Below, piece by piece: positions 2,060-31,805 of a DNA stretch of 47,650 nt (positions are counted from its first letter, which is position 1; each line of letters starts with the position of its first letter). The stretch spans positions 1-47,650 of IMG/VR virus record IMGVR_UViG_3300015371_000068; one strand, 5' to 3'. This DNA is from a virus. The notes beneath the pieces were generated by a model. That model saw nothing but the letters and a program-made list of their open reading frames with translations, made no database searches and was not told the origin of the DNA. The position numbers and the translations under genes are program-made.

Positions 2060-2370
2060 AAATCATCGCAATCTTAATTACGGCAGCAATGCTGTCGCTT
2101 TCCGCTGTTAGCTTCACGTCCTGTGCCAACATGAGTGGCACAGTTGCTACCGCGCAGGGATGGCTGAATGATCCCAAAAATCAGCAGCTCATTTCCGACA
2201 TCGCTTCTACCGCCATAAGTGTCATCGGCTTACTAGGCGCAAAAGAGGGAGCAAATACTCAGGCTACTACCGTCGGAAAACTTAGTGCCAAATATCCTGA
2301 CGTTCCCGCAGGCGCTCTCCGCGAGATTGCAGCGCATCCCCACGCCTATGCCAAAACCGCTCAACATTAA
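2056..2370 (+). CDS. Putative lipoprotein in lysis cassette (o-spanin-like candidate)
   Basis: This gene encodes 104 residues. The N-terminus is a signal peptide with a lipobox-like SFTSC ending at Cys23, although Phe at -3 is not the classical residue. The mature part is short and mostly helical, with a hydrophobic stretch at about 48-62. It starts in an ATGA overlap. A small lipoprotein directly downstream of single-TM coiled-coil proteins fits an outer-membrane spanin subunit, which would imply a host with an outer membrane. That role is inferred from layout and not from sequence family. Confidence 0.6.
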   Translation: MKIIAILITAAMLSLSAVSFTSCANMSGTVATAQGWLNDPKNQQLISDIASTAISVIGLLGAKEGANTQATTVGKLSAKYPDVPAGALREIAAHPHAYAKTAQH

Positions 2371-3133
2371 ATGGTACGGGTGGAGGGTCGATGTCCCGGA
2401 TAAGCGTGACCGCTACCGCATTGTTCGGCCACGGGTAGAGCCACTGCCAGCTCTGGTCGATCTGCGCGAACACTTCCCGCCCTGCTACGATCAGGGCGAT
2501 CTCGGCAGTTGCACCGCTCAATCCATCGCCGGACTACTTGAGTTTGCCCAACTCAAGCAGCCCGGTGGTGGCGATAACTTTACCCCGTCCCGACTCTTTA
2601 TCTATTACTACGAGCGCAAGATTGAAGGGACGCTAAAAGAGGACTCCGGCGCTCAGATTCGGAGCGGGATCAAGGTCGTGGCCGATCAGGGTGCTCCACC
2701 AGAAGAATTGTGGCCCTACAACATCGAGAAATTTACTACCCGCCCACCGCGCAAGGCTTTTAACGAAGCCAAGAAACATCAGGCCATTTCCTACGAACGA
2801 GTCTGCCAGAAGTTAGAGGACATTCGCGGCTCCCTCGCCGATGGATACCCCATCGCATTCGGTTTCAGTGTTTACGATGGGTTTGAGACTGACGAAGTAG
2901 CCAAGACCGGCGTCTTAGCTTTTCCGAAGTCAGAGGAAACGATGCTTGGCGGTCACGCCGTAGTCTGCTGTGGCTACGATCACGACAAGTCCCTTTTCAT
3001 TATTCGTAACTCATGGGGCACGGACTGGGGAGTAAACGGCTACTTCACAATGCCTTATGAATACGTCCTCGACCGTGATCTGGCGGACGATTTTTGGACA
3101 ATCCGTTTAATCGAAGAAGTAGGAGTAACATGA
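2348..3133 (+). CDS. Papain-like (C1A) cysteine peptidase
   Basis: From the ATG at 2348 the gene encodes 261 residues. The active-site signature YDQGDLGSCTAQS places Gln49 (oxyanion hole) and Cys55 (nucleophile). GGHAVVCCGYD supplies His203, and RNSWGTDWG supplies Asn221, giving a complete catalytic set. An earlier GTG at 2285 would overlap the lipoprotein gene by 86 bases, while the chosen start begins at the conserved KWYGWRVDVPDKRD region. There is no signal peptide, so it would stay in the cytoplasm or virion unless released. It is followed with a 4-base overlap by a double-psi beta-barrel protein. Possible roles are an endopeptidase for lysis, entry or virion maturation. Confidence 0.85.
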   Translation: MPKPLNIKWYGWRVDVPDKRDRYRIVRPRVEPLPALVDLREHFPPCYDQGDLGSCTAQSIAGLLEFAQLKQPGGGDNFTPSRLFIYYYERKIEGTLKEDSGAQIRSGIKVVADQGAPPEELWPYNIEKFTTRPPRKAFNEAKKHQAISYERVCQKLEDIRGSLADGYPIAFGFSVYDGFETDEVAKTGVLAFPKSEETMLGGHAVVCCGYDHDKSLFIIRNSWGTDWGVNGYFTMPYEYVLDRDLADDFWTIRLIEEVGVT

Positions 3134-3663
3134 GCCTGAAACCAGCCCGCTACAAAAAACACGTTCCCTTGCAGCGCCGGATGTCGTGGCGGCACAAACG
3201 CTTCATGGAGTACTCCGCGAAAGCGCCCCCGCAGGAAATTCTCATCGGGGACAAGGGCTTTTATTTCCACGCAGTAGTCGTCGGGGCCGATCTCATTGTC
3301 CGAGGCGTTCTCGCCACTTGGTTCGGCACTTCGCTGGACAAGCAGGATAACGGAGAAACCGCTTCAGGTGTTTCCACTCTCAAGACACCTGATGTAGTTG
3401 GCTGCGCGTTGCCCATGCATGGCTTTGGCCTCGCGGCTACCGATGGTTCACCCCTTCCACGCATCCCCTGGTTTACCAAAGTGCGGGTAGGTGTGCCCGG
3501 ACGCGAGCCAATCGACGTGCCACTGATTGATTTAGGTCCAGCCCGTTACACCAACCACGGAATAGACCTAACACCCGTCGCCTTCAAGAAGCTTGGAGGG
3601 GACTTAAACAGGGGAATCCTGTCTGTAGATTATCGGATATTAGGCGGGGCGCATTATTTATAA
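3130..3663 (+). CDS. RlpA-like double-psi beta-barrel protein (putative cell-wall enzyme)
   Basis: This gene encodes 177 residues. An AGGAG ribosome-binding site precedes the ATG, which overlaps the peptidase stop by four bases. The features ATWFG, NGETASGV, GCALPM, VPLIDLGPA and GIDLTPVAFKKLGGD follow the pattern of the RlpA/3D-type double-psi beta-barrel fold, in which conserved acidic residues act on peptidoglycan. There is no signal peptide. With the holin-like and spanin-like genes upstream it is the best candidate for the endolysin, though the fold also occurs in non-enzymatic proteins. Its last ten bases overlap the convergent HNH gene. Confidence 0.7.
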   Translation: MSLKPARYKKHVPLQRRMSWRHKRFMEYSAKAPPQEILIGDKGFYFHAVVVGADLIVRGVLATWFGTSLDKQDNGETASGVSTLKTPDVVGCALPMHGFGLAATDGSPLPRIPWFTKVRVGVPGREPIDVPLIDLGPARYTNHGIDLTPVAFKKLGGDLNRGILSVDYRILGGAHYL

Positions 3664-4058
3664 CGGTAACTGCCATGACATCTCCTACAGACCCATCTCA
3701 CATCAAGCCATTTAGAATAATCAGGGTGATGAGCATGAATGTCGTTCGACTCTTTCAGGCAATCGGCGCAGACACGGGGCCGAAACAAAAGGCCATGTCG
3801 AATCGCTCTCCGTACAGCGTTATGGGCGGCCCTTTTCTCTGGATTTCTGCGCGACCAGTCATTTCTCCACTTTCGGCAAAGGTCAGGATAACGCTTCCTG
3901 TATTCCTTGCTGCTGGCACGGGCTTTTACCAAAATGTTTTCTCGATTCTCGCGGTATTTTTTAAGGCCAACTTGGATGTGACATGGGGCGCAACGCCCTG
4001 TGCCTTTGTAAAACCTAACTTCGTCGCTGGTCTTTCCGCACATTCCGCATGTTTGCAT
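3654..4058 (-). CDS. HNH homing-type endonuclease, inserted antisense
   Basis: This gene encodes 134 residues. Two CxxC pairs at the N-terminus (CGMCG and CAPCH) and a second pair around CADC and CRRC frame an HH motif in the segment NDIHAHHPDYSKWLDVRW, which is typical of phage HNH endonucleases. The middle is strongly basic (RKRYPDLCRKWRNDW). It is the only minus-strand gene among plus-strand late genes and overlaps the end of the preceding gene by 10 bases, which is how free-standing homing endonucleases usually sit. Its likely job is to cut phage genomes that lack the insert. Confidence 0.8.
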   Translation of the reverse strand: MQTCGMCGKTSDEVRFYKGTGRCAPCHIQVGLKKYRENRENILVKARASSKEYRKRYPDLCRKWRNDWSRRNPEKRAAHNAVRRAIRHGLLFRPRVCADCLKESNDIHAHHPDYSKWLDVRWVCRRCHGSYRYK

Positions 4059-4077: not shown

Positions 4078-5196
4078 ATGAAAAAATGTCACTTCTTAAT
4101 CATCCTTTTAATTCCATCCTTCGTCTTTGGCGCAGACATCGGGGTTCCGGGGCAACCGCTCAATCAAGGGCAGATGATCGGTGGCGTAGGCGCTGATGGT
4201 AACTACCACTTTCTCCTTCTCGGCAATGACGGCAGTCTGAGTCTGAGCGGGGGCAGTATTTCCAACGGTGTCGCGCAGGGGTCAACCACCTCTGGACAAG
4301 TCGGCCCCTTGAGCCAAGGAGCAGTCACCACCTCAAATCCGAGTTATACCACGGGGCAAACCAGCCCGCTTAGTCTGGACACCAGCGGAAACTTGCGGGT
4401 GTCTGGAACCTTTGGTGGCCTTTCCCAAGGTTCGACTACCTTGGGTCAGACCGGCAGCCTCATTCAGGGCGCGGTTACGACGGCAGCACCGGCTTACACA
4501 ACGGCGCAGACCAACCCTCTCTCCCTTACTACAGCAGGAGGTTTGCGGACGGACAACACGACCATCGCTGGCACTACGATTGATACCAATTCAGGAAGCA
4601 AGTCGGCTGGAACCCAGCGTGTTGTTATCGCGACGGATCAGCCTGCGTTGACTAATAAACTGCTCGTAACTCCCGACGCCAATAGCGCCGTAAATGTTGC
4701 ACAGATGAATGGAGTCGCTGTGGACATGAACAGCGGCACGAAGAGCAACGGGACGCAGCGGGTTGTGCTGGCAACCGATCAGCCTGCTTTAACTAATACC
4801 TTGAGTGTCAATGGAACGAACTGGCCTGCCACGGTTGACACTAACTCTGGGAACAAGAGCGCCAACACCCCGCGATTTGTTCTGGCAACCGATCAGCCCA
4901 ATCTCACCACTGCTCTTAATGTAAAGCCTCCCGTCCGCACAACTTGGGTAACAGGACAGGTGACTACATCCGGCACTGCGGGAACATTGGTCGCTTCAAA
5001 CTCTACTAGGCGACGGTGCGTGATAAAAAACTTGGATGCAACGATCACCGTTTACGTTGGTCCGGCAACAGTTACTACCTCAAACGGGATGGAAGTAAAA
5101 GCAGGCCAATCCATAGAGATCACTGCGACACCATTGATTCAAGTGATAGCAGCGTCAGGAACACCAGTTGTGGCTTATTCGGATGAAAGCGACTAA
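4078..5196 (+). CDS. Secreted-type repeat protein, putative virion/tail surface protein
   Basis: This gene encodes 372 residues. Residues 1-19 form a clear signal peptide (Lys-Lys, then a hydrophobic core, ending VFGA). Two longer repeats follow (about 66-108 and 116-158), each with QGST, GAVTT and NPLSL/SPLSL words. Three copies of a NSGxKSxGTQRVVxATDQPA-type unit then lie between about 169 and 280. The TQRVV-ATDQP repeat is familiar from phage virion proteins. The C-terminus forms a small beta domain. The ATG lacks an evident ribosome-binding site, and the 3' end overlaps the next gene by 14 bases. The signal peptide is unusual for a virion protein. Confidence 0.75.
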   Translation: MKKCHFLIILLIPSFVFGADIGVPGQPLNQGQMIGGVGADGNYHFLLLGNDGSLSLSGGSISNGVAQGSTTSGQVGPLSQGAVTTSNPSYTTGQTSPLSLDTSGNLRVSGTFGGLSQGSTTLGQTGSLIQGAVTTAAPAYTTAQTNPLSLTTAGGLRTDNTTIAGTTIDTNSGSKSAGTQRVVIATDQPALTNKLLVTPDANSAVNVAQMNGVAVDMNSGTKSNGTQRVVLATDQPALTNTLSVNGTNWPATVDTNSGNKSANTPRFVLATDQPNLTTALNVKPPVRTTWVTGQVTTSGTAGTLVASNSTRRRCVIKNLDATITVYVGPATVTTSNGMEVKAGQSIEITATPLIQVIAASGTPVVAYSDESD

Positions 5197-6007
5197 AGCG
5201 GCTCTTATTGTATTACTCGCGGGCGCGACAGTTGCTCATGGCGCAATCGCCCGCGTCCAGTCGAAAGCTGCCAATACCAGCGCGACCAACGCGACCAGCT
5301 TGCCAATAGTCATGGATTCAACTCCGACTGCTGGGAACGTGCTGGTTATTGCCTATACCGGGGGCGGAACTTCTAACAACGACCCGCGCATGAGCGAGCA
5401 GGCCGGGATTACATGGCAGATCTACCAGAACCATAACTCGACTAGTGGTACGGGCGGAATTGCTTTTGGCCGGGTAGCGGCGGGCATTGCTTCTTCTACG
5501 GTCACGTTAGCCTGTACTTCCTCGCAGCCGCTTGCTGCAATCGCCGTGGAATATAGCGGGACAAATATCCGATCTGATAAACAGATTGCGGCCACAGGAA
5601 GCAGCACCACGGCAGCGACTGGCGCGACGAGCGAGGCCACTAATAACGCTAACGAACTTTGGTTCGCGAGCGTTTCATGTAGAAGCAACGCAAACGTACC
5701 CGTTTTTTCCAGTCCCGTGCTCGCTGGCACCGGAGGGACTGCTGCCTTTGTGGCGCAAACGAACACCAACAACGCCGGCTCGAATCTTGACCGAGATATA
5801 GCGGCAATCGAGCGGATCGTAACCGCTACTGGCAGCCCCAACGCTAGTGCCACCATGTCGAGCACTAACCAATGGAACGCGCTGCTTATGACCTTTGAGG
5901 AAACACCGAGCAGCTCCTCGACCGGCGACACCAAAATTCCCTCGATTGGCATGAATCTTTACAACTGGCTCAAGAGAACAGCAGGCGTGATTCTAACCCA
6001 CCGATGA
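5183..6007 (+). CDS. Secreted-type beta-rich protein, putative tail/adhesion component
   Basis: This gene encodes 274 residues from the ATG at 5183. Residues 1-21 form a signal peptide ending AHGA. The mature part is rich in Ser, Thr, Ala and Asn, with short alternating beta patterns (for example GNVLVIAYTGGG and NALLMTFEE), as in phage surface beta-sandwich modules. The start lies inside the previous gene and the end overlaps the next ATG by four bases. No enzymatic motif is seen. The position among tail genes suggests a fibre or decoration protein. Confidence 0.65.
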   Translation: MKATKAALIVLLAGATVAHGAIARVQSKAANTSATNATSLPIVMDSTPTAGNVLVIAYTGGGTSNNDPRMSEQAGITWQIYQNHNSTSGTGGIAFGRVAAGIASSTVTLACTSSQPLAAIAVEYSGTNIRSDKQIAATGSSTTAATGATSEATNNANELWFASVSCRSNANVPVFSSPVLAGTGGTAAFVAQTNTNNAGSNLDRDIAAIERIVTATGSPNASATMSSTNQWNALLMTFEETPSSSSTGDTKIPSIGMNLYNWLKRTAGVILTHR

Positions 6008-6684
6008 AGCGAACACTACTCAGCCTTTTTGTAAGTATGGCTTTAATCCATGCTTACGCACAGGATATGTCCAAGGGGCATACCTTCACCGATGGTGATA
6101 CCGTTCACGCTGCTGATCTTAACACGCTGGTAGATGGTGCCACTATCCTGCACACGTTCATTTCCAACAAAGCGGTAACTACTCCGCTAACCAGCGATCT
6201 TTTCATTTTCGATCAAGCCTCAACCAACACGCTCAAGGCGGTATCTTTAGCCAGCTTATTGACGGCTGGGAATGCGCTGGACACCAGTACTGTCAGGGCC
6301 GCTAATGTTTTTTATGGTGGGCCTATCAGTGGGGCAAGCGCGGCTCCTACTTTCCGTGCGCTTGTTCCGGCAGACACTTCCGACGCCACCAACACCGCAG
6401 GTGGCACTACGGTTGATTGTTCGCTTGCCAGAACTTTTGATCGAACGCTCTCGGCCAACACCCTCTACACTCTGACCAACATCTCTGATGGAGAAACCGT
6501 GACCGTCGCCGTTCATCAAGCGGCTTCGGGTGGTCCTTATACCGCCACTTTCACTGTAGCTGGGGGTGTGACATGGAGAGGCGGAACAGCACCAACTCAG
6601 ACTACCACCGCGAGCAAGATTGATCTCTACACCTTTATTCACATCGGAAGCAAGGTTTACGCGACCGCGAGCCAGAACTATTAA
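6004..6684 (+). CDS. Tail-fibre-like protein with signal peptide
   Basis: This gene encodes 226 residues. Residues 1-19 form a signal peptide ending AYAQ. The segment HTFTDGDTVHAADLNTLV resembles the N-terminal motif of many phage tail-fibre or spike proteins (GDxVxAADLN). SGASAAPTFRALVPADT is a common fibre linker phrase. The C-terminal half is a beta-rich domain. It is coupled to both neighbours (ATGA with the upstream gene, two bases to the next). It is likely a fibre subunit. Confidence 0.7.
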   Translation: MKRTLLSLFVSMALIHAYAQDMSKGHTFTDGDTVHAADLNTLVDGATILHTFISNKAVTTPLTSDLFIFDQASTNTLKAVSLASLLTAGNALDTSTVRAANVFYGGPISGASAAPTFRALVPADTSDATNTAGGTTVDCSLARTFDRTLSANTLYTLTNISDGETVTVAVHQAASGGPYTATFTVAGGVTWRGGTAPTQTTTASKIDLYTFIHIGSKVYATASQNY

Positions 6685-6685
6685 A

Positions 6686-7108
6686 ATGGTAGCCCTACTC
6701 TTCGCTGTATGCTTGGCTCAACTGGGCCTGCCATTTTCAATGGTGGCGGAAACAGGAGCGGCACCGACAGCTACGCCGACTCCCACTGGGACTTCGACTC
6801 CTTCACCCGGAACCGTTGTAGCAACGCCGGTTATCACTCCCTCTGGCGGGCAAGATCAACCCGTATCAGTCTCAATTACCTGTGCGACTTCTGGCGCGAC
6901 CATTTTTTACACCGTTTCCAATTCCCCAGGGACAACGCCGGGACACAGTGGTGCAACTCCAACTGGCAGCACGTTAATCTACAGCAACCCATTCCAAGTC
7001 ACTGGTAACAATAACAAGACGGTCAAGGCGCTCGGCTACAAATCTGGCCTGACCGATTCAGCCGTTCGCACTGCTGACTATCAAGGCGGTGCGGGAGGAG
7101 GACAATAA
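6686..7108 (+). CDS. Secreted CHB_HEX_C-type domain protein
   Basis: This gene encodes 140 residues. A hydrophobic leader (residues 1-20) is followed by a short Thr-Pro linker and then one domain with the pattern ATPVITPSGG, ATIFYTVSN and VKALGYKSGLTDS. This matches the chitobiase/beta-hexosaminidase C-terminal domain, a small beta-sandwich used by secreted enzymes for attachment. It starts one base after the previous stop and its stop shares a base with the adaptor gene's ATG. It is probably a surface-binding accessory protein. Confidence 0.65.
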   Translation: MVALLFAVCLAQLGLPFSMVAETGAAPTATPTPTGTSTPSPGTVVATPVITPSGGQDQPVSVSITCATSGATIFYTVSNSPGTTPGHSGATPTGSTLIYSNPFQVTGNNNKTVKALGYKSGLTDSAVRTADYQGGAGGGQ

Positions 7109-8688
7109 TGGACTTGGGCGGCTACAGTTCACTCATTTGCAAGAAGGTCGGGACAACTGACCAGGATTCTCAAGCTACCTGCAAAGGTTTTATCCAAAAC
7201 CGCTACCAGTGGATTTACTACCGCTTTGACTGGCGCGATGGACGACGGCGCGATGCGATCACTTCCACCGCCGGAAGTGACAGCGTGGCTCTACCTTCAG
7301 GAGTAGATAGGATTCTGTCCATCCGCTATGGCGACCACTTCCTTGATCCCGTGGATGACACATTCTTTGTCGAGACTGATCCGGGTATTTTCGAGCGCAG
7401 CGGCATCCCGCAATACTATCAGGAGTACACTGAGGACGACGCGACCAAACGCATCCGGCTTTACCCAACTCCTGCGGTTGCTGGAACAATGCTGGTTATT
7501 GGTAAGAAAGCGTTGCCACCGTTGATAGCTGATTCCGACACCCCGATTCTACGAGGAATAGATCAGGTCATCATTGCCTACGCCGAGTCCGACATGCTGG
7601 AATACCATCGGCAGTACGGGAAAGCGCAGCAGAAGTTTGCCGAAGCCGAGAAACTTTTCGCTGATGCAGTGGCTTTGGAGCAGCAACAGACCAATGTTCC
7701 ACGCAAGGCCAAGAATCTGACAGTGGCTGGTGACAGCCTCGCCGAAATGACCGATGCGGTCTGCGCCAGAATAGGTCAATGGACTCCCGACGTATTGATT
7801 ATGGTCAAAGAGTTCCTGCGGCGAGCCTACATCCAAGCCTATGACGCCTATCTCTGGCCGGAGAGTTTAGTAATCGCGCGGGTGGATTCGGATGGAGAGC
7901 AGGTCATTCTCCCGTGGTACATCGGCGCTGTCATTCAATGCCGCGCCGACACCAAAGGGGCTACTCTCGGTCCAGTTGATCTCTCTACCTATTTCGCGAT
8001 CACGCCGACCATCTTTGAACAAATGAGTGGATGGCCGGTAGCTTATTCCATTCTAACGCCGGTAGCAGTATCGCGACTTCCTCCCATTCAGGAGCGGCTT
8101 GCCTTTACCAGCAGTGACCCGAGTGACAACACTCCGATCATGGTCCGCGGAGAATCCAGTGGAGATATTCTGACGGAATCGGTTGAACTTAATGGAACAA
8201 GCCCAGTCTATACCGGATATACTTATCTAACTCCGTTGACCGTAGCAAAACAGCTAACACTAGGAGACATCACAATCGAAGGAGCATCCAGCGGGGCCGA
8301 TCTGGGAGTGCTCCGATCCTACGAGCGCGAACGCAAGCGGATGCGTCTGTGGATTCAGCCTTCTTCCACCACCGCTCATCACTGTTTGGTCTTGGGAAAG
8401 CGCATTATGCGGCCTCTAATTCAGGACGAGGACACCCCAGGTATTCGTAACATTGCCAATTACCTGATTCACATGGCTGTGTCGGAATCCTATTCCAAAC
8501 TGGGTAACGCGCAGGGAGCGGCGGATTGCAAGGCCAAGGCAGATTCTTCTTTGCAGGCTCTGATTGACTTAGAAGTTCGACAGAACAGTAGCGGCACTCG
8601 CGTTATCCCGTATGTCTCGGCTCCGTGGAGTGGTTTAGAGGATGAGTACTTCAGTAACTGGTTGTGTGATAAGGCTGACTTTATATGA
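7108..8688 (+). CDS. Duplicated head-tail adaptor protein (T7 gp11/P22 gp4-like)
   Basis: This gene encodes 526 residues with no signal peptide. Two copies of the same domain are visible. Copy 1 (about 9-200) contains RYQWIYYRFDWRD, IRLYPTPA and LVIGKKALPPLIADSDTP. Copy 2 (about 217-500) contains RAYIQAYDAYLWPE, MRLWIQPS and LVLGKRIMRPLIQDEDTP. The pattern of a short helical start, a Trp-containing motif, then a beta strand ending in YPxP is typical of phage connector/adaptor proteins that form the ring below the portal. Most relatives are single-domain at about 200-250 residues, so this one is roughly double length. Confidence 0.65.
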   Translation: MDLGGYSSLICKKVGTTDQDSQATCKGFIQNRYQWIYYRFDWRDGRRRDAITSTAGSDSVALPSGVDRILSIRYGDHFLDPVDDTFFVETDPGIFERSGIPQYYQEYTEDDATKRIRLYPTPAVAGTMLVIGKKALPPLIADSDTPILRGIDQVIIAYAESDMLEYHRQYGKAQQKFAEAEKLFADAVALEQQQTNVPRKAKNLTVAGDSLAEMTDAVCARIGQWTPDVLIMVKEFLRRAYIQAYDAYLWPESLVIARVDSDGEQVILPWYIGAVIQCRADTKGATLGPVDLSTYFAITPTIFEQMSGWPVAYSILTPVAVSRLPPIQERLAFTSSDPSDNTPIMVRGESSGDILTESVELNGTSPVYTGYTYLTPLTVAKQLTLGDITIEGASSGADLGVLRSYERERKRMRLWIQPSSTTAHHCLVLGKRIMRPLIQDEDTPGIRNIANYLIHMAVSESYSKLGNAQGAADCKAKADSSLQALIDLEVRQNSSGTRVIPYVSAPWSGLEDEYFSNWLCDKADFI

Positions 8689-8963
8689 GTCCAATTCTTG
8701 ACTGGGCGCAGCTCGCGCCAACCTCAGACATCGTTCGTATTACCCGATTCGATATTACCGACCGAATGGCCCTGGCAGCTCTACCTACGGTTGCCCTCAG
8801 GACAGGATCGGTCATCGACATTATTACCGGAGTAGGCACCGGAAGAGCGGCAGCGGAAGTAGAGCTTCAGGATGGAATTGCCGACGCTCTTGATTCCAGC
8901 CAAATCCAGCCTTCAGACGACCTAACAAGACATTGGCAGGTCGTAGGCGGTGTATTGCCATGA
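8685..8963 (+). CDS. Small protein between adaptor and large fibre gene
   Basis: This gene encodes 92 residues, with ATGA overlaps at both ends. It is acidic and soluble with no signal peptide. Residues 28-62 show an alternating beta pattern (VALRTGSVIDIITGVGTGRAA). No family is recognised. Its position suggests a small head-tail or tail component. Confidence 0.6.
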   Translation: MSPILDWAQLAPTSDIVRITRFDITDRMALAALPTVALRTGSVIDIITGVGTGRAAAEVELQDGIADALDSSQIQPSDDLTRHWQVVGGVLP

Positions 8964-11900
8964 TGCGTAAATCAATCGCGGTACTTCTTTTTTGCCTCGG
9001 CGCGGGCCTGCTCTACGCAGCAGAAACCGTGGTGGTAGATTCCAAGACTAGGGATGTAGTCAACACTGGCGTCATTAACTTCGCCAACGGGCAACTGAGA
9101 GTTGGCGGGGTCAACGTCGGGCCTGGTGGTGGCGATGGTGGCGGCACCATAACAGATATTGTTTTAAGCCTGCCAGCTACGCTCTTCCAGAGTCCGGTAG
9201 ATTTTACGATTGACTCAGCCGGCACTGCCACTGGCTCTGCCCTATTAGCTAATGCCCCCAACAACAGTGTCCTCGCCAATTTCAGCGGTGGTGCAGCCGT
9301 TCCAAACTGGCAAAGCCTGACTGCACTAAAGACTGCGGCTGGACTCGATAATCTCGATAACACGTCCGACGCTAATAAGCCTGTTTCCGTCGCCACCCAA
9401 ACCGCGCTCAATTTGAAAGCAGATGTGACGGCTATGAACACGGCACTGAGCGCCAAGGCCGACACCAGCGCACTAACCAGCGGTTTAAATGCAAAGGAGG
9501 ATTTGCTTCCCAATACATCGGTCAATGGCTACATCCTTTCCCGGCAAACTAATGGAACCTATAGCTGGGTTGATCCCGTAACACTTGGAACGACCAGCTA
9601 CAACGGCACCGATGGTGTCTCTAATAGCAGTACTACCTATACGAGCGCGACCGCCAACTTTGTTGCTGGCGACGTTGGCCTGACCATTACTGGCACCGAT
9701 ATTCCCGCAGGCACAACCATCGCCAGCCGAACCAATGCGACAACCATCGTCTTGAGTCAGGCCGCTACTGGCAGTCACACCGGAAATTCTTTCACTATCG
9801 TCAACCGACTCCTTCCAGCAGGCGGCACGGGAACAGTGACAAACTTTAGCGCGGGTGACTTATCCCCGCTCTTCACGACTACGGAAGCCACTACCACTAC
9901 GACACCAGCTTTAAGTTTCAACCTTAGCACCGCCGCGGCTAACACCGTGTTTGGCAATAACACCGGCTCGACCGCTGCACCGGGATTCCAAACCTTAGTG
10001 GACGCACAAGTGCCGGACATCCTCACCCTTACCCGCGCGTCAAATCTGACTACCAACGGTTTTGTAAAAACCAGCGGTGGCAATGGCACTCTCAGCGTGG
10101 ACACGACCGCGGCTTACGAACTCCCGCTTACTTTCAATGCTCCATTCTCTCGTTCCGGCAACATAGTTTCAATGTCTGCGGCCAGCGGAGGCGGGAACGG
10201 ATATCTTAGTTCGACTGATTGGGGTCATTTCAATACCGCTTACTTGATCTCGCCTCAGACCGTCCTAGCCAGCAGTTGCACAGGGAGCAATCCCTGCGTT
10301 CTGGATTTGTCAGCCGGAGCGAACCCGCCGATCAACCGCATCCTACTTACTACCGTTCTGGCAGATGATCTGAAGGTCATCATGCCTCCTTCTGCTAACT
10401 ACAATGCCTCGGTTGGTTTTGAAGCTCTCGAAATCATGGATGTAGTGGGAGGGGCGCAGGGTACGAAGGGTGTCAGCGTTACCGGCTCAGGAGCCAATAC
10501 GGTTGATGGAGTGGCGGCAGGGACATTGGTGGCGATGCCAAGGAGCGCGAGTTACATGAGGTTCGCTCCCAATGGAACCAGCAAGTGGGTATCGACCAAT
10601 TATTACACCACAGCTTTTGTAGATAGAGCCGACAAAAACAAGATCATCACCGTTGATGTTTCGGCGCTCCCTTCGCCCGCTCCCAATCCTAACTACGTTT
10701 TCCGGCCAGCCACAACCGGAGATAGCGTCAGCGTGGTTCCCACTGATTCAGGAGCCGCAGGGTTTATTAAAGACATCGGAAGTAATGGGACCGCGACAAA
10801 GACTCCTCCTACCCCAAGCGATATGGTTCCAATCGAGGAAGTAATTGGAACGGTAGGAGTCGATATTTCTGGATCATCCAAGGACGTAACGACTGGCGGA
10901 ATCATAGACACGATCAGAATAGCCGGAAACCTTGTCTCGTCCTATACCATCCGGTTTCCCAATGCCAGCGACTATCCATCGGGCTTCCCATTGGTTCTCA
11001 TTGATGCCTCAGGCACGGTTTCTTCATCCCATCCTGTCACCGTTACCTCGCAGAATGGAACTGACCTTTTCCCTAACGGGCAAACCTCAATCATCTTCGA
11101 CGAGCCAAATGGCAGGAAGGTGTTCACCTCCGATGGAAACGCCAACTGGAACGTTACTACAGTAAAGACTTCGATTCAGCCGTTCCAGGTTCTCGCCCCT
11201 GGTCAAAACAACACCTTCACCATTTCCGGCAACACTAGTGCGGTGCGGCATAACGCCCATATCCCGCTCGCCAACGGCAACAACATTCTCGCGGTCGATA
11301 ATCCCTATGATGGAATGGATATTTACCTTACCCTTATCCAGCCATCTTCTGGAACGAGGGGATCGCTTTTCCTTCCCGTTGGCAGCAGGGTAGAACCTTC
11401 CGGTGCAGGAGTGGTAACTCTCTCCGCTACCAATGGGAACATCGACACTCTGCACGGCACATACAACGGAGCACTTACGCAGTTTCTATGGGACGCACCG
11501 AAAGGACCATATACTTCCGCATCCGTCCCGACAGCACCTAGCACGCTGGCTACAGGAACAGTCACGGCCAGCACCATTGCTCTGACATGGGCCGATAATT
11601 CATCCAACGAGAGCGGATTCGCGCTTGAACGCTGCGCGGGGGCAAGCTGCAGCAACTTTAACCTAATTGCTACCTACACAGCAGGAACGAACAGCGCGAC
11701 CGATACCGGAGTTTCGGCTGACACCGACTATTCATACCGGATTCGCGCATTTAACTCGGCTGGATATAGCACCTATTCCAACACCGCGACCGCTCACACG
11801 GCTATGGGTGGCCCTACGGCTGATTTGTGGGAGGTTCACTTTAATGACGGGACTGGTAATACTCGCGCCCATGCTACCGCTGGTCCTGATGCCATTCTCT

Positions 11901-12859
11901 CTTACGCGACTGACTGGATTACATCCAATCTTCCCGCAGGCTCAACCGGCGCTGCGCTCCATACCGTAGTTGGAATGGCAGGGACAAGTGGTCTTACGGC
12001 CACACCGACATGCTCCGGCACTTGCGCCACCAGCTACACCTACAAGGTGCTGGCATGGAAGAATGATGGGGTTCATCACAACGGATTTAGCGGAAACGGA
12101 TTCGCAGTGACAAACGCATCCACTCTCGACGGGACGCACTTCAACCATCTTTCATGGACCGCTGTCACAGGAGCGCAGTATTATACCGTTTATAGAGTAG
12201 CCTCGGGCGGGACCAATGGACTAGGGGCGCTCGTAGGAACCGGACCTGGGTTTACTAACACAACCTTCGATGACATGGGAGCGACTTCGGTGTTGCCACT
12301 CCCAGTATTCACCGCGACAGACATTCACAGCGCACAGGCTGAAACTGCGGTTGACTATACCCACGCTGGCGCTGTCACGGGTGACAAGCTGTCAGTCTCC
12401 TTCTGGGCCAAGTCAGTTTACAACACCGCGACCAACACAATCGCGGTTGTGGACGGTGGCACTGGCTCATGGAGAATCATGGCGGCAAACACTGGCACGA
12501 ACGGCAAGTTCCAGATCACATTCCCGCGCGGCACCGGAACTGAATCTGGTACGGCATCAATGAACGTCAGCAGTGGGGGCAATACTATCAACAGCGGAAC
12601 GGGATGGCATAACATCGTAGTCACGATGGACAACTCGACCACGAACCACGGTGCCTCGCAGATACAGGTGTTTTATGACGGGAACAATCCTCAAACCGTG
12701 AGCTATGTCACAACTGGCACGAACCAGAAGATATTTACCAACAGCGCCCCAGTGGTCGGTTCGCAGACCCTAGCTGCTGATGTGAAGGATGTCAGAGTTT
12801 ACGGGCACATCCTGAGCGGCTCAGAAGTGGCTGCAATCTTTAGTGGAAATGCACAATAA
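8960..12859 (+). CDS. Giant secreted-type tail fibre/adhesin with FN3 and LamG-like domains
   Basis: This gene encodes 1299 residues. Residues 1-21 form a signal peptide ending LYAAE. Next come a fibre-like coiled region (QTALNLKADVTAMNTALS), a beta module (about 215-280) with TSATANF and DVGLTITG, and long beta-rich stretches. Near residue 850 lies a fibronectin type III domain (SNESGFALERC, DTDYSYRIRAFNSAGYS). The C-terminal about 350 residues resemble a LamG/concanavalin jelly roll (LSVSFWAKS, WHNIVVTMDN, KDVRVYGHIL). It starts in an ATGA overlap and ends 11 bases inside the next gene. The domain set suggests host glycan or surface binding. Confidence 0.75.
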   Translation: MMRKSIAVLLFCLGAGLLYAAETVVVDSKTRDVVNTGVINFANGQLRVGGVNVGPGGGDGGGTITDIVLSLPATLFQSPVDFTIDSAGTATGSALLANAPNNSVLANFSGGAAVPNWQSLTALKTAAGLDNLDNTSDANKPVSVATQTALNLKADVTAMNTALSAKADTSALTSGLNAKEDLLPNTSVNGYILSRQTNGTYSWVDPVTLGTTSYNGTDGVSNSSTTYTSATANFVAGDVGLTITGTDIPAGTTIASRTNATTIVLSQAATGSHTGNSFTIVNRLLPAGGTGTVTNFSAGDLSPLFTTTEATTTTTPALSFNLSTAAANTVFGNNTGSTAAPGFQTLVDAQVPDILTLTRASNLTTNGFVKTSGGNGTLSVDTTAAYELPLTFNAPFSRSGNIVSMSAASGGGNGYLSSTDWGHFNTAYLISPQTVLASSCTGSNPCVLDLSAGANPPINRILLTTVLADDLKVIMPPSANYNASVGFEALEIMDVVGGAQGTKGVSVTGSGANTVDGVAAGTLVAMPRSASYMRFAPNGTSKWVSTNYYTTAFVDRADKNKIITVDVSALPSPAPNPNYVFRPATTGDSVSVVPTDSGAAGFIKDIGSNGTATKTPPTPSDMVPIEEVIGTVGVDISGSSKDVTTGGIIDTIRIAGNLVSSYTIRFPNASDYPSGFPLVLIDASGTVSSSHPVTVTSQNGTDLFPNGQTSIIFDEPNGRKVFTSDGNANWNVTTVKTSIQPFQVLAPGQNNTFTISGNTSAVRHNAHIPLANGNNILAVDNPYDGMDIYLTLIQPSSGTRGSLFLPVGSRVEPSGAGVVTLSATNGNIDTLHGTYNGALTQFLWDAPKGPYTSASVPTAPSTLATGTVTASTIALTWADNSSNESGFALERCAGASCSNFNLIATYTAGTNSATDTGVSADTDYSYRIRAFNSAGYSTYSNTATAHTAMGGPTADLWEVHFNDGTGNTRAHATAGPDAILSYATDWITSNLPAGSTGAALHTVVGMAGTSGLTATPTCSGTCATSYTYKVLAWKNDGVHHNGFSGNGFAVTNASTLDGTHFNHLSWTAVTGAQYYTVYRVASGGTNGLGALVGTGPGFTNTTFDDMGATSVLPLPVFTATDIHSAQAETAVDYTHAGAVTGDKLSVSFWAKSVYNTATNTIAVVDGGTGSWRIMAANTGTNGKFQITFPRGTGTESGTASMNVSSGGNTINSGTGWHNIVVTMDNSTTNHGASQIQVFYDGNNPQTVSYVTTGTNQKIFTNSAPVVGSQTLAADVKDVRVYGHILSGSEVAAIFSGNAQ

Positions 12860-15668
12860 AATTATTGTTCTGATTGGATTCTTGGCCTGTGCCAAGCTCG
12901 CGGTCGCAAACCCAGGATGCACTGGCGGGAATGACGGACACACCTGTGTATTAACCACGCTGTCTCAGGCGACCGTTCAGTCAACCCTCGATACCATCGC
13001 GGTGAATGGTGACACCATCCAGCTACCAGCCGGAGAAGTGGATTGGACGGGGATATTGAATTACTCCCTCGACATTCAGCTAATTGGAAATGGAATGGAT
13101 GAAAACAATCGGACACCCCATCCGAACGGAGTTCCCTACTACTATCAGGTGGATAACACTAAAGCCACCATCATTCATGTAAAAGACCCGAATGGAGGAT
13201 GCATTCATGCTACCCTGCAAAATACTGACTTTACCTCGCGCGTAAGCGGCATTGTCTTTGAGTTGCACACAACTTCTGACAAGAATTATTGTCTCGTTTT
13301 TGACGGGAGATCGCGCCGCCATAAGAATGCATCAAACAATATTGTTGGTGGTCTGCGCGTGGATCATATCAGGTGGCGTAACACGGCAGACGCCGCTCCG
13401 TGGCCGATAGCTAAACAGGCCAACACTATCAGTTGGTCCGGTGCCAATGGTTTAGGGACAAACCAATACATTACCGGACGCTTTGACCATAATTTCTTCG
13501 ACTATCAGGACGGCCAGAACGGTGGCGGAAATGAAATCACCAGCTTCGGCGCACCCGGCCACGCGCAGCCTAGTGCCACGCCTAACTCAAGTGGAGCCTA
13601 TGCTTGGGCAACGCATTATAGTTATGGTGGTGGAGATAACAATACCGAGCTGGATTGCGTTTACATTGAGGACAACATCATTCATCGCGGCGGGGCTGTT
13701 CTGGACACCCTGGCTGGTGGGGTGCGTGAAATTTTGCGCTTCAACACGAGTTGGGGTGGTTTAAGTAGCCACGGCGTCGATGGTGGAAACCTTGGACCGG
13801 CTTCCGCTGAGTACTACAATAACTTTCTCGTAAACTATCAGGAACACGCTACTTCTCTGATGAATTGTAGAGGAGGCGCACGCGTATTCACTAACAACTA
13901 TTGTCAGACGACAACCTCTGGAAAGCTGATAGCAACACAGACCTATCGCTCCCGCTCGACTCAATCCCAGACGCTCGGTCCCGCGACAGGCAGGAACTTT
14001 CTCGATTATAACTGGCGCGGAAATCTGACACACAATGAAGTGTCCTCGATTCCGGTTGGAGATACGATCACAGCGGAAGCCTCACCGAGTCCCGCTCCTG
14101 ATATTCGCCTCGGCAGTATCTATGCCCACGGCACACTGGCAACCGATGACGTGATTGAGCCACACACAAGATATAAACTGGTCGGAGTAGATGGCGGTAA
14201 CTCGACCACGAAATGGGCTGGATTCACCATTGTTAGTCTAGGGCCCGCCTTTCCAGCCGCGCCACCTGCCGCAGATGGGGAACAAACCGTAGCGGCCCTA
14301 AACAACGGGCAATATTGGGCACTCATCAATAGTAACACCCCCGGAATGGACACCGTGATTTCGGTTGAGGGTGGCGCGAACTATGAGCACGCCGTAGGTG
14401 GCCCCTATTTTGGCCTTGCACCAACCGACCAGAAGTTCACAGACGGAAAAACTCACGGAGATACGACGCTCGATTCCGCGACGGCTAATTTTGCCGCTTC
14501 AGACGTTGGGAAAACAATCACTTCTTCAGGTAACATTCCGAATGGAACAACGATAGCTACCAGAGTTAGTGACACCCAGGTCACACTTAGCGCCGCTGCA
14601 ACGACAACGGCTACAGGAGTGACATTCACGATCCTGAACCGGCGCGGTGGACCTTCCGGTAATTGGGAGATCAGAAGGGTGCGAAGGTATCTGTGCGATC
14701 CTGGGGCTGGCATTCTTGGCGATGGCGTAACGCCAGCCTTTCCGAATGGAGGCAGGCTTGCAACCGACAACTGCAACGGCACTCCGCCGCAATGCGATCA
14801 AAAGGGCTATTGGTACCTGAATGCCAACGCTAACGCAGCAATAGCGCCTATTGGCGTTCACAAGTATTGGGCGGGGCAGGTGGCGTGGGGCGACTGGCAG
14901 AAAGATAATAAATGGCGCACTGGCGGCACAACCGCGACTCCTTGGACTGCCTTCCCCCAAATGTGGACGAATCCTGCTGCTGGTCCACAGGGAGGCGGAC
15001 ACAATGAAGTATTGCCCGACGGCCTAACGATAGGCCATGAAAACGATGGCGGCGGCGGCGGCTATCCATCTGTTAACACGACTGATCCGCTCCTTCGTCA
15101 CATCGGAGCACACTGGTTCGCTCCGGGTTACGGCACCAACGTCAACAACCCAGGGGACGCGCGACCTGCTTTTGATGAAGGAAAGGACATTCCAACTTCC
15201 GATACAACCTATCGGGCCTACTTCCTGCACGTTTATCCCAACCCAACCGGCGAAGGGTTAGTTCCTCGATTCAGCAGCGCCAGCGCGATTGATACTGTTG
15301 TCAGCGTGCCGCTTTCGACGACATTCCCGCCGAGCGGATTCCAACTTACGGTAACAGATTTCCCAGCTAGTCCCGCGCCTACCTTCAGTCTGCGAACAGG
15401 ATCAAATCCCCTGCCAACAGGCTTAACCATGAACGCGGCGGGCCTAATCTCAGGGACGCCAACTGTGGTGAACGCTAATGGAACACTGGTGCTAGTGCGG
15501 GCAGTGAGCGGCGCGGTATCAGCTCCGCAAGATTTGACCATTCGCGTCAATGCTACCCCAACCCCTACTCCAACCCCCAGCCCAACCCCTACGCCGACCC
15601 CCACTCCAACCCCTACGCCGAGTCCGACAGCCGCCCCAACCGCAGCGGTTATACAGGTATCGCCATGA
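12849..15668 (+). CDS. Beta-helix tailspike-like protein with signal peptide and Ig domain
   Basis: This gene encodes 939 residues from ATG 12849 (a GTG at 12843 is possible). Residues 1-21 form a signal peptide ending AVAN. The next about 450 residues have the repeated short-strand pattern of a right-handed beta helix, as in pectate-lyase-like tailspikes (HNFFDYQDG, DNIIHRGG, NNFLVNYQEH). A module with SATANFAASDVGKTIT (about 545-595) is related to one in the preceding fibre. A putative Ig domain (LPTGLTMNAAGLISGTPT) and a Thr-Pro tail finish the protein. It may degrade a surface polysaccharide, but no catalytic residues can be named. Confidence 0.75.
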   Translation: MHNKIIVLIGFLACAKLAVANPGCTGGNDGHTCVLTTLSQATVQSTLDTIAVNGDTIQLPAGEVDWTGILNYSLDIQLIGNGMDENNRTPHPNGVPYYYQVDNTKATIIHVKDPNGGCIHATLQNTDFTSRVSGIVFELHTTSDKNYCLVFDGRSRRHKNASNNIVGGLRVDHIRWRNTADAAPWPIAKQANTISWSGANGLGTNQYITGRFDHNFFDYQDGQNGGGNEITSFGAPGHAQPSATPNSSGAYAWATHYSYGGGDNNTELDCVYIEDNIIHRGGAVLDTLAGGVREILRFNTSWGGLSSHGVDGGNLGPASAEYYNNFLVNYQEHATSLMNCRGGARVFTNNYCQTTTSGKLIATQTYRSRSTQSQTLGPATGRNFLDYNWRGNLTHNEVSSIPVGDTITAEASPSPAPDIRLGSIYAHGTLATDDVIEPHTRYKLVGVDGGNSTTKWAGFTIVSLGPAFPAAPPAADGEQTVAALNNGQYWALINSNTPGMDTVISVEGGANYEHAVGGPYFGLAPTDQKFTDGKTHGDTTLDSATANFAASDVGKTITSSGNIPNGTTIATRVSDTQVTLSAAATTTATGVTFTILNRRGGPSGNWEIRRVRRYLCDPGAGILGDGVTPAFPNGGRLATDNCNGTPPQCDQKGYWYLNANANAAIAPIGVHKYWAGQVAWGDWQKDNKWRTGGTTATPWTAFPQMWTNPAAGPQGGGHNEVLPDGLTIGHENDGGGGGYPSVNTTDPLLRHIGAHWFAPGYGTNVNNPGDARPAFDEGKDIPTSDTTYRAYFLHVYPNPTGEGLVPRFSSASAIDTVVSVPLSTTFPPSGFQLTVTDFPASPAPTFSLRTGSNPLPTGLTMNAAGLISGTPTVVNANGTLVLVRAVSGAVSAPQDLTIRVNATPTPTPTPSPTPTPTPTPTPTPSPTAAPTAAVIQVSP
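15554..15630 (+). repeat. Low-complexity Thr-Pro coding repeat
   Basis: The sequence iterates CCNACNCC-like codons and encodes alternating Pro and Thr/Ser at the C-terminus of the beta-helix protein. Such linkers are common in exported proteins of Verrucomicrobiota. A related, less regular tract occurs at about 16010-16195 in the next gene. These tracts are likely sites of recombination and of assembly error. Confidence 0.85.
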
Positions 15669-16516
15669 AGCTAACCACATTGCTTTTACTGGCTGCATCA
15701 ACGGCAGTCGCTAGGCCGAGTCCAACTCCTTCCAGTCCTACGCCAGCCCCGCTGCCATTAACCTATGATGGCGGACAAGCGTTTGTTAATGGAACAAATC
15801 TGGAAGCGGGAAAGAGCCATCTCATTACCGCAATCACGACTTCTGGGCCAGTGACGTTTCAGCGGGATGGGAGTGTGGTAAGGGTAGATTCAGCCGCGCC
15901 CTTCAACTTCGGCTGGACACCGACTGGTATCGGAGCGCACACCTTTAGAGCACAAGCAGCGAACGATCAGTGGTCGGAAGTGACCTTCAACGTAGTCTCT
16001 TCGACAGTAACGCCCACACCCACACAAACACCGACGGCAACGCCGCCACCGCCATCGCCTTCACCAACAACTCCATCGCCTACCCCTTCCATTTCGCCCA
16101 CGCCGTCAGCAACACCAACAGCCACTCCGGTGCCGTCACCAACAGGAACGCCAACACCCACACCGACTGCAAGTCCGAGTCCATCCCCGACTCTTGCCTA
16201 TGTTACCGTCACCGTCCAGTGGGCGGCTACTACAGACGACCGTTACACAATTCTCTACGGCGAAACCAATCCATCCGATACTCAAGCCGATGGCGGGATC
16301 GCAGTGCGCGATGGGCAAATGACAGTGGCGATCTCCGGCCTAAAGCCCAACACGACCTATTGGTTCAGCGACATCGTGACCAGCCCGACTGGGGCCGAAT
16401 CAGGGCCGCTTCCGCCAATTTCTTATCATACCAACTCGAATCCGGCCCAGCTCTTCAGGATCGGAGCCTTCAACCTTCCACGCAATGCCAGTTCTCAATC
16501 TCGAAACATTAGATGA
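15665..16516 (+). CDS. Secreted Ig/FN3 protein with long Thr-Pro linker
   Basis: This gene encodes 283 residues and starts in an ATGA overlap. Residues 1-16 form a signal peptide (ending TAVARP). A beta-sandwich domain lies at about 30-112 (FNFGWTPTGIGAHTFRAQA), a Thr/Pro/Ser linker at about 115-178, and a fibronectin type III-like domain at about 180-258 (VTVQWAATTDD, LKPNTTYWFSDI). The architecture is that of a host extracellular protein. The last 32 bases overlap the nozzle gene. It is probably a surface adhesin or fibre accessory. Confidence 0.7.
   Translation: MKLTTLLLLAASTAVARPSPTPSSPTPAPLPLTYDGGQAFVNGTNLEAGKSHLITAITTSGPVTFQRDGSVVRVDSAAPFNFGWTPTGIGAHTFRAQAANDQWSEVTFNVVSSTVTPTPTQTPTATPPPPSPSPTTPSPTPSISPTPSATPTATPVPSPTGTPTPTPTASPSPSPTLAYVTVTVQWAATTDDRYTILYGETNPSDTQADGGIAVRDGQMTVAISGLKPNTTYWFSDIVTSPTGAESGPLPPISYHTNSNPAQLFRIGAFNLPRNASSQSRNIR
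16010..16195 (+). repeat. Second Thr-Pro-Ser low-complexity coding tract
   Basis: The tract encodes the Pro/Thr/Ser linker between two beta domains of the preceding gene. It is less regular than the tract at 15554-15630 but made of the same ACN CCN codon pairs. Confidence 0.75.
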
Positions 16517-18089
16517 CCAAATCGTTTACGATGGAGTGGGTTCCTTCGTTGGTGGACAGGTCAGCGGCACTCGGGCCAATCTTCTTCAGGAGAATGAGTC
16601 GTCCCAGCTAATCAACTGCGACGTTACCCGCACGGGAGAGCTTCGCACTCGGCGTGGAACGATCTGGCTCGGCAACGCTAACCCAGGGGTTGCTTCCTTC
16701 ATTCAGGGAATGGGGTTTTATGATTCGCCTTCCAATACCTATCCCGTGGCCGCTTCCAATGAAGGCGTAGTTTACAAATGGAATGGAAGCATCTGGTCAG
16801 GATTGAGTGGTTTTACCACAACCGGAGGACTCACTGATCGCATTCTCCTTGTCAGTGGAGCAGGAAAACTCTTCCACATCTTTCCGGGTGTCGAAGCTGC
16901 CATTCACTATTGGAACGGGACAACTTGGGCGGCACTCGGGACAACAACTAACGCGCATCCCCCAGCCAATCCACGCTGGATGGTATGGCACACAGGGCGA
17001 CTGGTCGTAACGGGTGGTCCGACCGCGCCGGAAGCGATCTACTTCTCGCAATTCTTGGATGGAACAGTTTGGGATCGCGCTCTTTGGTCACTCACCGTTT
17101 CTGGTGATGGCATCCCCGTCACCGGCCTCTGTCCGTGGACTGATTACCGGATGATCGTGATGAAGCGGGACAGCCTCTGGTACATCGACTGTAATCCGCA
17201 GCTCCAAATTCAAGACCCCTCCAACACCATTGCGGGTTTCGAGAAGAAGCCAATCCACCTCGCCATTGGTTGCCTCGCGCCAGCTACAGCGTGTCAGGTC
17301 GGCGGGGATGTCTATATGCTGACGACCAGCGGAGTCAGAAGTGTGCAGCGCACCCTCGCGGCGGAGACTCAGACGGACATTGGTGATCCACTCAGCTACC
17401 CCATTCAGGACATCATTGATCGAGTCAATCCCGCTGCCATTGGAACTGCTAATGCTACTTTCTGGAATAATAGATACTTCCTAGCACTCCCGCTGGATAG
17501 TGCAACCCAGCCCAATTTCGTTGCCGTTTACAACGTCCTTACCCAGAGTTGGCACGGCACCTGGACTGGCTGGAATCCCACCTCATGGTCAACCAATCTG
17601 GTCAATGGAGTGCCGAGGCTCCTCATTGGGCAGACTGACGGCTCAGTCGCAGAATGGCTCGATTACGTGCAGGTGGACAGCGAGGTTGACGCCACTTATC
17701 AGGACGTGCGAGCGGATGGGATTCACAACATCCCGACCACCGTTTTAACCAAAGCCTTCGATCACAAGGAGCCGGTCTGCAAAAAGCAGGGATTCAACTG
17801 CCAGTACGAGTTTTTTCGTTCACTCGCTGATGTCACAGCCCAAGTCATCCTTGATGGTGGCGATCCGCAGACGTTCCAGACGTTCGCGACGAGCGGCGGC
17901 TCAGTTGTTCTGCCTGCCGACCTACCGTTCCTTTTGCCTTCACTCGGGATCAAGCGGCGTGGCTTTAGTCTGCAACGCTTCCCGCCCTACCGCGAGCTAC
18001 AATACAAGCTGACTACCGCCAGTAAGAAGCTGGTCTTACGCAGCATCGTTACTGGCGGATTTATCAATACGGTTGATATAGAAATTTAA
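16485..18089 (+). CDS. Tail nozzle protein (T7 gp12/P22 gp10-like)
   Basis: This gene encodes 534 residues with no signal peptide. The N-terminal statement SQLINCDVTRTGELRTRRGT is typical of nozzle or tail tubular protein B-like proteins. Repeated blades follow with patterns such as YFSQFLDGTVWDRALW, GRLVVTGGPTAPEAIYFSQ, MIVMKRDSLWYI and YNVLTQSWHGTW, which suggest a beta-propeller. With the adaptor it would form the short tail tube through which DNA leaves. It begins 32 bases inside the previous gene. Confidence 0.7.
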   Translation: MPVLNLETLDDQIVYDGVGSFVGGQVSGTRANLLQENESSQLINCDVTRTGELRTRRGTIWLGNANPGVASFIQGMGFYDSPSNTYPVAASNEGVVYKWNGSIWSGLSGFTTTGGLTDRILLVSGAGKLFHIFPGVEAAIHYWNGTTWAALGTTTNAHPPANPRWMVWHTGRLVVTGGPTAPEAIYFSQFLDGTVWDRALWSLTVSGDGIPVTGLCPWTDYRMIVMKRDSLWYIDCNPQLQIQDPSNTIAGFEKKPIHLAIGCLAPATACQVGGDVYMLTTSGVRSVQRTLAAETQTDIGDPLSYPIQDIIDRVNPAAIGTANATFWNNRYFLALPLDSATQPNFVAVYNVLTQSWHGTWTGWNPTSWSTNLVNGVPRLLIGQTDGSVAEWLDYVQVDSEVDATYQDVRADGIHNIPTTVLTKAFDHKEPVCKKQGFNCQYEFFRSLADVTAQVILDGGDPQTFQTFATSGGSVVLPADLPFLLPSLGIKRRGFSLQRFPPYRELQYKLTTASKKLVLRSIVTGGFINTVDIEI

Positions 18090-31617: not shown

Positions 31618-31805
31618 TGTTTTTGTTCCTTCCGGTATGGTGTGTAATCCCAAGGGATGTACGCCGGAAGCGAGGGTTTCCCCTGTCGCTCCGGCGGACT
31701 CGCCTTGCGTTGTTGTCGGTCACGCTCGGTGTGGCGACCGACCTTGTAGCCGGTCATCCACGCCAGAATGGTGAGCGCGGCGCTAAAGAAAAAGTAAGCG
31801 TTCAT
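31614..31805 (-). CDS. Small single-TM early protein
   Basis: This gene encodes 63 residues, coupled by ATGA overlaps on both sides. One membrane helix (residues 3-20) is followed by a basic, Pro-rich cytoplasmic tail. It may anchor or partner the secreted protein encoded immediately downstream. Confidence 0.6.
   Translation of the reverse strand: MNAYFFFSAALTILAWMTGYKVGRHTERDRQQRKASPPERQGKPSLPAYIPWDYTPYRKEQKQ

Follow-up and report, generated by a model that had tools for sequence, protein, structure and literature searches.

Tailed phages are taught to assemble entirely in the cytoplasm, and the fibre and virion families phrog_11518, phrog_2647, phrog_24595 and phrog_6002 are normally cytoplasmic. 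The tailspikes of P22 lack a leader and in vivo are attached within the cytoplasm; spikeless P22 particles are reported to accept tailspikes in vitro, which shows that in principle a finished particle can acquire its spikes outside the cell (a literature search on this in vitro addition returned nothing). Virion coat proteins with cleavable Sec leaders are known from the filamentous phages, in the form of pIII and pVIII. Here we describe a tail-fibre module in IMGVR_UViG_3300015371_000068, a 47,650-base virus record of IMG/VR analysed over its full length (hereafter the window), in which nearly all fibre-like genes begin with a predicted signal peptide while the adaptor and nozzle genes among them do not. 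Export of the fibre proteins is, as far as sequence can speak to it, well supported; our favoured reading, that the fibres are exported by Sec, folded in the periplasm and docked on virions at lysis, is one to which we give a probability of roughly 0.48.

The window phage may be read as a podovirus from its major capsid protein at 46320 (phrog_1357, E 1e-45), a portal-like protein at 41848 (a weak match, E 0.02), and its adaptor and nozzle/head-closure genes.

Predicted signal peptides of the module

The genes of the module, and the neck genes that lie among and beside them, are these:

4078..5196 (+): fibre-like protein, 372 amino acids (aa); leader MKKCHFLIILLIPSFVFG (4078-4131), mature start ADIG; score 4.66
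5183..6007 (+): protein of 274 aa; leader MKATKAALIVLLAGATVAHG (5183-5242; end set by eye, the best site by score sitting 5 residues before it); score 4.99
6004..6684 (+): tail-fibre-like protein, 226 aa; leader MKRTLLSLFVSMALIHAYA (6004-6060), then a tail-protein N-terminal domain; score 4.55
6686..7108 (+): protein of 140 aa with a chitobiase C-terminal/Fn3-associated domain (PF13290, E 2.7e-10); doubtful leader, score 1.71
7108..8688 (+): head-tail adaptor, 526 aa, two fused adaptor domains (SU10_adaptor, E 4.7e-13); no leader
8685..8963 (+): conserved protein of 92 aa, found at the same place in both close relatives; no leader
8960..12859 (+): long fibre, 1299 aa, with an Fn3 domain; leader MMRKSIAVLLFCLGAGLLYA (8960-9019; end by eye); score 4.80
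12849..15668 (+): protein of 939 aa with a proline/threonine (P/T)-rich linker and a conserved C-terminal tail; leader MHNKIIVLIGFLACAKLAVA (12849-12908; end by eye); score 4.86
15665..16516 (+): protein of 283 aa with a P/T-rich linker and a conserved C-terminus; leader MKLTTLLLLAASTAVA (15665-15712); score 3.82
16485..18089 (+): nozzle/head-closure protein; no leader in the window phage or either close relative

Leaders were scored by rules that combine the charge of the n-region, an 8-residue hydrophobic core and small residues at -3/-1. Calibration was on a single stretch of E. coli K-12, its cut and very small genes excluded, in which eight proteins that we take from their names to be exported scored 3.51-4.45 and the best of 32 cytosolic or membrane proteins scored 3.31. 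The cut-off for wide scans was 3.6, below which two of the eight exported calibration proteins would fall. At this cut-off 36 of 1754 closed genes of at least 100 aa pass in the other fetched viral loci (57 of 1797, minus four loci belonging to close relatives). Against this background, passing scores in six of ten neighbouring window genes (P ~1.5e-8, genes assumed independent) are not attributable to chance.

An earlier note on this DNA had counted seven clear signal peptides. Six of these (scores 3.82-4.99) have the features of Sec export and of cleavage by signal peptidase I – a positive n-region, a hydrophobic core and small residues at -3/-1 – while 6686 fails and remains doubtful. Inspection of the leaders by eye revealed no lipobox cysteine at +1, as for signal peptidase II, at the cleavage sites of the fibre genes; elsewhere, gene 2056 looks lipoprotein-like by eye. 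The claim that the leaders are selective holds: the interleaved adaptor and nozzle score nothing, and the same is true of gene 8685. The presumed lysis enzymes at 2285 and 3094 (3094 judged by eye) are also leaderless, and export is therefore not general to late genes.

Not every start is pinned by overlap with the upstream gene, as had been claimed, although five are (5183 by 14 bases, 12849 by 11, and 6004, 8960 and 15665 by 4 each); 6686 begins one spacer base after its upstream gene and 4078 is preceded by a 414-base gap. Within the gap lies a minus-strand open reading frame (ORF), 3654-4058 (-), HNH endonuclease-like by eye, which looks like an insertion because G001, one of two close relatives described below, has no gap there: its 4078 homologue directly adjoins the upstream gene. 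The whole pattern could be an artefact, arising from misassigned starts, from chimerism of the contig or from host genes within the window, and by eye an obvious ribosome-binding site is indeed absent upstream of most genes. Yet three contigs share the gene order, the stop-start overlaps, the places of the leaders and the interleaved neck genes, and we hold an artefact to be very improbable. Chance, chimerism and wrong starts were each considered and judged unlikely.

Conservation in close relatives

Scans with the nozzle and the capsid protein, both single-protein and three-row, found just two close relatives, G001 and G002, which are contigs of one metagenome. Their nozzles are 83% and 77% identical to that of the window and their capsid proteins 96% and 95%. 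Fibre-like genes scoring at least 3.46 number six of seven in G001 and seven of eight in G002, the exception in both being the homologue of 6686. The gene content of the module varies among the three phages, and leaders are found also on genes present only in the relatives (encoding 498 aa in G001; 126, 547 and 499 aa in G002). The G001 orthologue of 4078 carries the leader MKKLLLLLLIPAFAYG ahead of ADIG; the orthologues of 12849 score 4.89 and 5.36, and those of 15665 score 4.54 and 4.76. Gene 5183 aligns (18-22%) with repeats of leadered proteins from the same module in both relatives.

In 6004 the leader is identical to those of the orthologues at 8/19 and 10/19 positions and the next 30 residues at 27/30 and 23/30. 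For 12849 and 15665, divergence is as great in the mature N-termini as in the leaders, or greater. At the other end of 12849 (window 15640-15668) a short tail, A-x-I-x-V-x-P, follows the P/T-rich linker in all three phages and is conserved although G001 has a different next gene.

Gene 6686 stands apart. Its scores across the three phages are 1.71, none and 2.33, and its N-terminus is hydrophobic but without positive charge. Unlike the leaders, the segment is conserved as sequence (LAQLGLPFSM, or LAQVGLPFSM in G002), and is followed by a P/T linker and the chitobiase domain; perhaps it is a docking peptide instead of a leader. The charge-free, conserved N-terminus would also suit the proposal that the hydrophobic N-termini stay uncleaved and serve as anchors for the fibres, in the virion or in a membrane. 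We give this little credence, because the other leaders diverge yet keep small residues at -3/-1, and because those of 4078 and 6004 precede conserved mature starts.

Virion-type domains in leadered proteins

In both 8960 orthologues leader and virion domain stand in one chain: they match the head-decoration family phrog_2647 (E 9e-34 and 9e-33), the tail-fibre family phrog_11518 (E 2e-14 and 5e-23) and the virion structural family phrog_24595. The 547-aa leadered protein of G002 has a match to another virion structural family, phrog_6002 (E 2e-22). Compared to solved structures, the 8960 profile finds mostly Fn3 domains, plus one 'tail fiber gp9' chain (E 2e-4). Gene 6004 matches phrog_5596 (no assigned function, E 2.6e-14) and shares its N-terminal domain with leaderless proteins that match tail-fibre families and lie beside the same neck genes; moreover, the module adjoins neck genes, as do the tail genes of relatives. 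Pfam and PHROG searches gave no virion or tail-fibre domain for 6686. The description of these proteins as virion-like, offered in the earlier note, is supported for a part of them: for 6004 by homology, and for the 8960 orthologues and the 547-aa protein by their own matches, whereas these searches give no such match for 4078, 5183, 6686, 12849 and 15665.

The two halves of the adaptor at 7108 match each other (BLASTP E 1e-9), and each also matches the single-domain adaptor of a distant relative, L103; adaptors in five leaderless relatives have 214-326 aa and no repeat. The nozzle matches a family named amidase (phrog_5107, E 3e-12), a virion structural family (phrog_3287, E 2e-4) and a head-closure family (phrog_578, E 0.08), and 8685 has no family match in Pfam and PHROG searches. 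Among annotated phage records the adaptor, the 499-aa protein and the 12849 orthologue have no match; 4078 has one short match, 6004 three partial ones, the nozzle matches 4 records and the capsid protein 32.

The principal competing explanation is that some or all of the leadered products are exported non-virion proteins acting in the periplasm, on the surface or outside the cell, whether by masking receptors against superinfection and re-adsorption to debris or by binding or degrading matrix. Fn3, chitobiase C-terminal and LamG (below cut-off) domains, together with P/T-rich linkers, do resemble secreted bacterial proteins, and the window has leadered genes outside the module, at 31189 and 38446. 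Nonetheless we think this explanation less likely than the favoured reading: leader and virion or tail domains occur within the same chain, the leadered genes occupy the place that leaderless tail proteins hold in the gene order of relatives, and no other clear receptor-binding protein is seen in the window, though 18489 has a Peptidase_S74 tail domain.

Probable gain of the leader

A scan with the 6004 profile found eight loci, namely G001, G002 and six from more distant phages, and all six of the latter are leaderless and start at the mature position. The 6004-type proteins of L099 and L103, whose genes precede adaptor and nozzle either immediately or at one gene's remove, begin MGLSKGHTFTDGETVTAAKLNNLVDNATI and MPDITKGHTFTDGESVTHVKLNNIVDSASI, where the window reads AYA, the cleavage point and then QDMSKGHTFTDGDTVHAADLNTLVDGATI. 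Gene neighbourhoods were viewed for 13 of the 29 loci of distant relatives. Alignment A9 comprises 12 leaderless rows (11 contigs) that start at the mature position and 3 leadered rows; it excludes L100-L102, L104, L114, L115 and L122 (copies or near-copies), the L127 gene and unshown loci, and its rows L105, L124, L125, L126 and L015 (14-17% identity) are placed by position and N-terminal motif only. One further protein, of 108 aa in L105, scores 3.73.

A tree built from 18 nozzle rows groups the three leadered phages in a single clade (100/100), and one change suffices. The tree treats L127 as leaderless, though its record, G004, has leadered genes elsewhere; if these are counted, the trait needs two gains. 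The leader of 6004 thus looks gained, since distant homologues start where the mature part starts. Homologues that start downstream of the leader, raised in the earlier note as an objection to its own proposal, do occur, but in other clades, and point to gain. An ATG lies in frame at precisely the first mature codon of the window's 6004, but G001 has CTT and G002 has ATC there; this speaks for gain rather than a misread start.

Rarity and recurrence in other phages

A scan with the 8960 fibre domain returned 79 viral loci, of which 77 are closed at the 5' end and three have leaders (G001, G002 and L020); the 547-aa protein returned 80, with 75 closed and a leader on one, L146. Loci open at the 5' end (2/79 and 5/80) were excluded. 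Leaders are thus present on 4 of 152 closed ORFs, two of the four being the close relatives, even though the scans tried all starts within the first 30-60 codons, which favours finding leaders; many loci are near-copies, and the counts are of loci rather than lineages. A non-lipoprotein leader is absent from 156 of 190 loci.

Three further phages, G003, G004 and G005, each have two or three passing leadered genes, some of them fibre-like, and locus L083 has two passing genes. G003, which contains L020 and is a phage by terminase match, encodes leadered proteins of 774 aa, ~724 aa (ORF 731, score 4.55) and 176 aa (score 5.4), the second of which matches phrog_2647 and tail-fibre families. Its 16.5-kb locus has no tblastn match to the window's ORFs, and its record no capsid-protein match. 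The neighbours read as adaptor and nozzle have no leader and no phage-family match. The protein at the adaptor's place (L020 9964-12570, 868 aa) contains an internal duplication (E 3e-23); its assignment as an adaptor is weakly supported, by E 8e-4 to that of L105 and by no phage family, and among annotated phage records it finds only its own. This duplicated protein also has a chitobiase C-terminal domain (E 3e-9), as does 6686 of the window.

G005, to which L146 belongs, has T7-type tail tubular proteins (phrog_376, phrog_394, phrog_9239), one of them short at 203 aa. There a tail protein without a leader (phrog_1640) comes first, and after it three leadered proteins, of 1589, 234 and 231 aa, together with a 281-aa protein whose leader is weaker (score 3.04); the 1589-aa protein matches phrog_6002 and the 231-aa protein matches tail families over its Fn3 part. 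G004, to which L127 belongs, is distantly related to the window by its nozzle (29%) and has three leadered genes in a row, of which one is fibre-like by eye and without a PHROG match; the tail protein beside its nozzle is leaderless. These last two phages give the non-virion explanation some purchase: the leaderless tail protein of G005, beside leadered ones, could be the real virion fibre, and that of G004 (phrog_21562) may be so likewise.

We tentatively propose that several unrelated podoviruses independently complete their particles at lysis with fibres exported by Sec and matured in the periplasm, so that a particle would become infectious only outside the cytoplasm. This may go together, for the lineage of the window and perhaps for G003, with a neck protein in which two repeats are fused (in the window, a double adaptor) and which could provide an extra docking ring.

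Proposed export and docking, and their alternatives

The favoured reading supposes that the tail-fibre module of a podovirus has moved to the Sec export route. Late in infection the fibre proteins would be synthesised with cleavable leaders, which they would lose on crossing the inner membrane; in the periplasm they would fold, and close cysteine pairs could oxidise there. Heads with adaptor and nozzle would meanwhile be built in the cytoplasm without fibres, and once the phage lysis proteins open the cell the particles would traverse the periplasmic contents and pick up their fibres. Actual translocation and cleavage, and docking at or after lysis, are steps that we infer, the docking following if the fibres are receptor-binding proteins. 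Cleavable-looking leaders, leaderless neck genes and the close cysteine pairs of 8960 all fit with export and periplasmic folding: the six cysteines of mature 8960 form three pairs with gaps of at most 6 (P 1.5e-5), and G002 has two such pairs (0.001).

A number of observations weigh against this reading. The window's own 8960 is without the strong virion match of its orthologues, showing weaker ones at the Fn3 domain (phrog_18315, phrog_21285), while 4078, 5183, 12849 and 15665 match no virion family in Pfam or PHROG, 12849 having no PHROG match of any kind, and are possibly non-virion secreted proteins; AlphaFold models of 12849 and 5183 (predicted local distance difference test scores, pLDDT, 26.7 and 36.8) are unusable. 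The leader of 6686 is not a clean one, and the 3.46 of 6004 in G001, the lowest score to pass, falls between the two calibration ranges. When neutral mutation is simulated, the leaders still pass in 9-42% of the trials of each comparison, and leader conservation is therefore modest evidence of constraint (one comparison per family, multiplied, gives by our own arithmetic roughly 1.5e-4 to 2.5e-3). Cysteine pairing is weak in G001 (one pair, 0.06), and leaderless proteins also have paired cysteines (nozzle, gaps 7; 18489, gap 4). Finally, potential internal starts are present in all three phages a few residues behind the leader of 8960 (GTG codons) and at codon 18-19 of 6686 (ATG), so that leaderless products of these two genes are possible.

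The internal starts, which include the ATG of the window's 6004 and one at codon 31-33 in the 4078 pair, bear directly on partial export: a cytoplasmic share of each protein, arising by leader failure or from internal starts, would be built into virions while the exported share acts elsewhere, for example in receptor masking. We regard this as improbable. The 6004 start is not kept in the relatives, those GTG codons behind the 8960 leader do not fall in any one alignment column in all three phages, and 5183, 12849 and 15665 have no common start within 35 codons behind the leader.

Should the favoured reading be right, leaders on nearly all fibres of the module imply a second assembly compartment and oxidative folding of receptor-binding proteins; they imply also that sticky fibres are kept off internal receptor precursors, or that the dying cell is coated. 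Leader plus fibre domain is a signature by which such phages may be found, and annotators are warned not to trim such leaders as wrong starts.

Other genes of the window

Two leadered genes lie outside the module. That at 31189-31620 (-) encodes a DVUA0089-family protein above the NCBIfam cut-off, the family being found in one of 14 control genomes (Deinobacterium chartae); that at 38446-39471 (+) has no family match in Pfam or NCBIfam. The lysis-type region at 2285-3663 combines a papain-family C1 peptidase with a DPBB match below cut-off, a seemingly unusual pair for a phage, and 895, 1278, 1519 and 2056, read as holin or spanin candidates, have no lysis-family match. At 34640-35737 there is an Amidoligase_2 domain protein, adjoined at 35754 by a gene that is glutamine-amidotransferase-like by eye. 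Genome contigs scanned for the host with the adaptor profile and with the 31189 protein yielded no relative; the host may belong to the Verrucomicrobiota.

Comparison with known systems

The literature searched holds no precedent for exported fibres, although its coverage excludes most subscription journals and novelty is accordingly unproven. Exported fibres are not described in the available portions of PMC3556154, PMC3338817 and PMC3322345.

The leadered coat proteins of filamentous phages, pIII and pVIII, differ from the fibres of the window in that they enter the membrane and are assembled as the particle is extruded, with no lysis of the cell; proteins and particle are unrelated. Extrusion of the filamentous type was rejected on gene content, the window having a tailed-phage major head protein (E 1e-45), an adaptor, a head-closure protein and a weak portal match.

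The distant podovirus relatives (L103, L099/L122, L106, L109, L110, L112, L114 and L115) are closer: they have the same order of 6004-type tail protein, adaptor and nozzle, and an N-terminal motif in common with the window (S-x-GHTFTDGE-V or close). Their tail-fibre genes, however, are leaderless, and the leaders scored there belong to a gene that looks lipoprotein-like by eye and to a single antisense ORF, in L114. A similar relationship holds for phrog_11518, phrog_2647, phrog_24595 and phrog_6002, which have domains in common with the orthologues of 8960 and with the 547-aa G002 protein, but in which 148 of the 152 closed ORFs from the two scans are leaderless.

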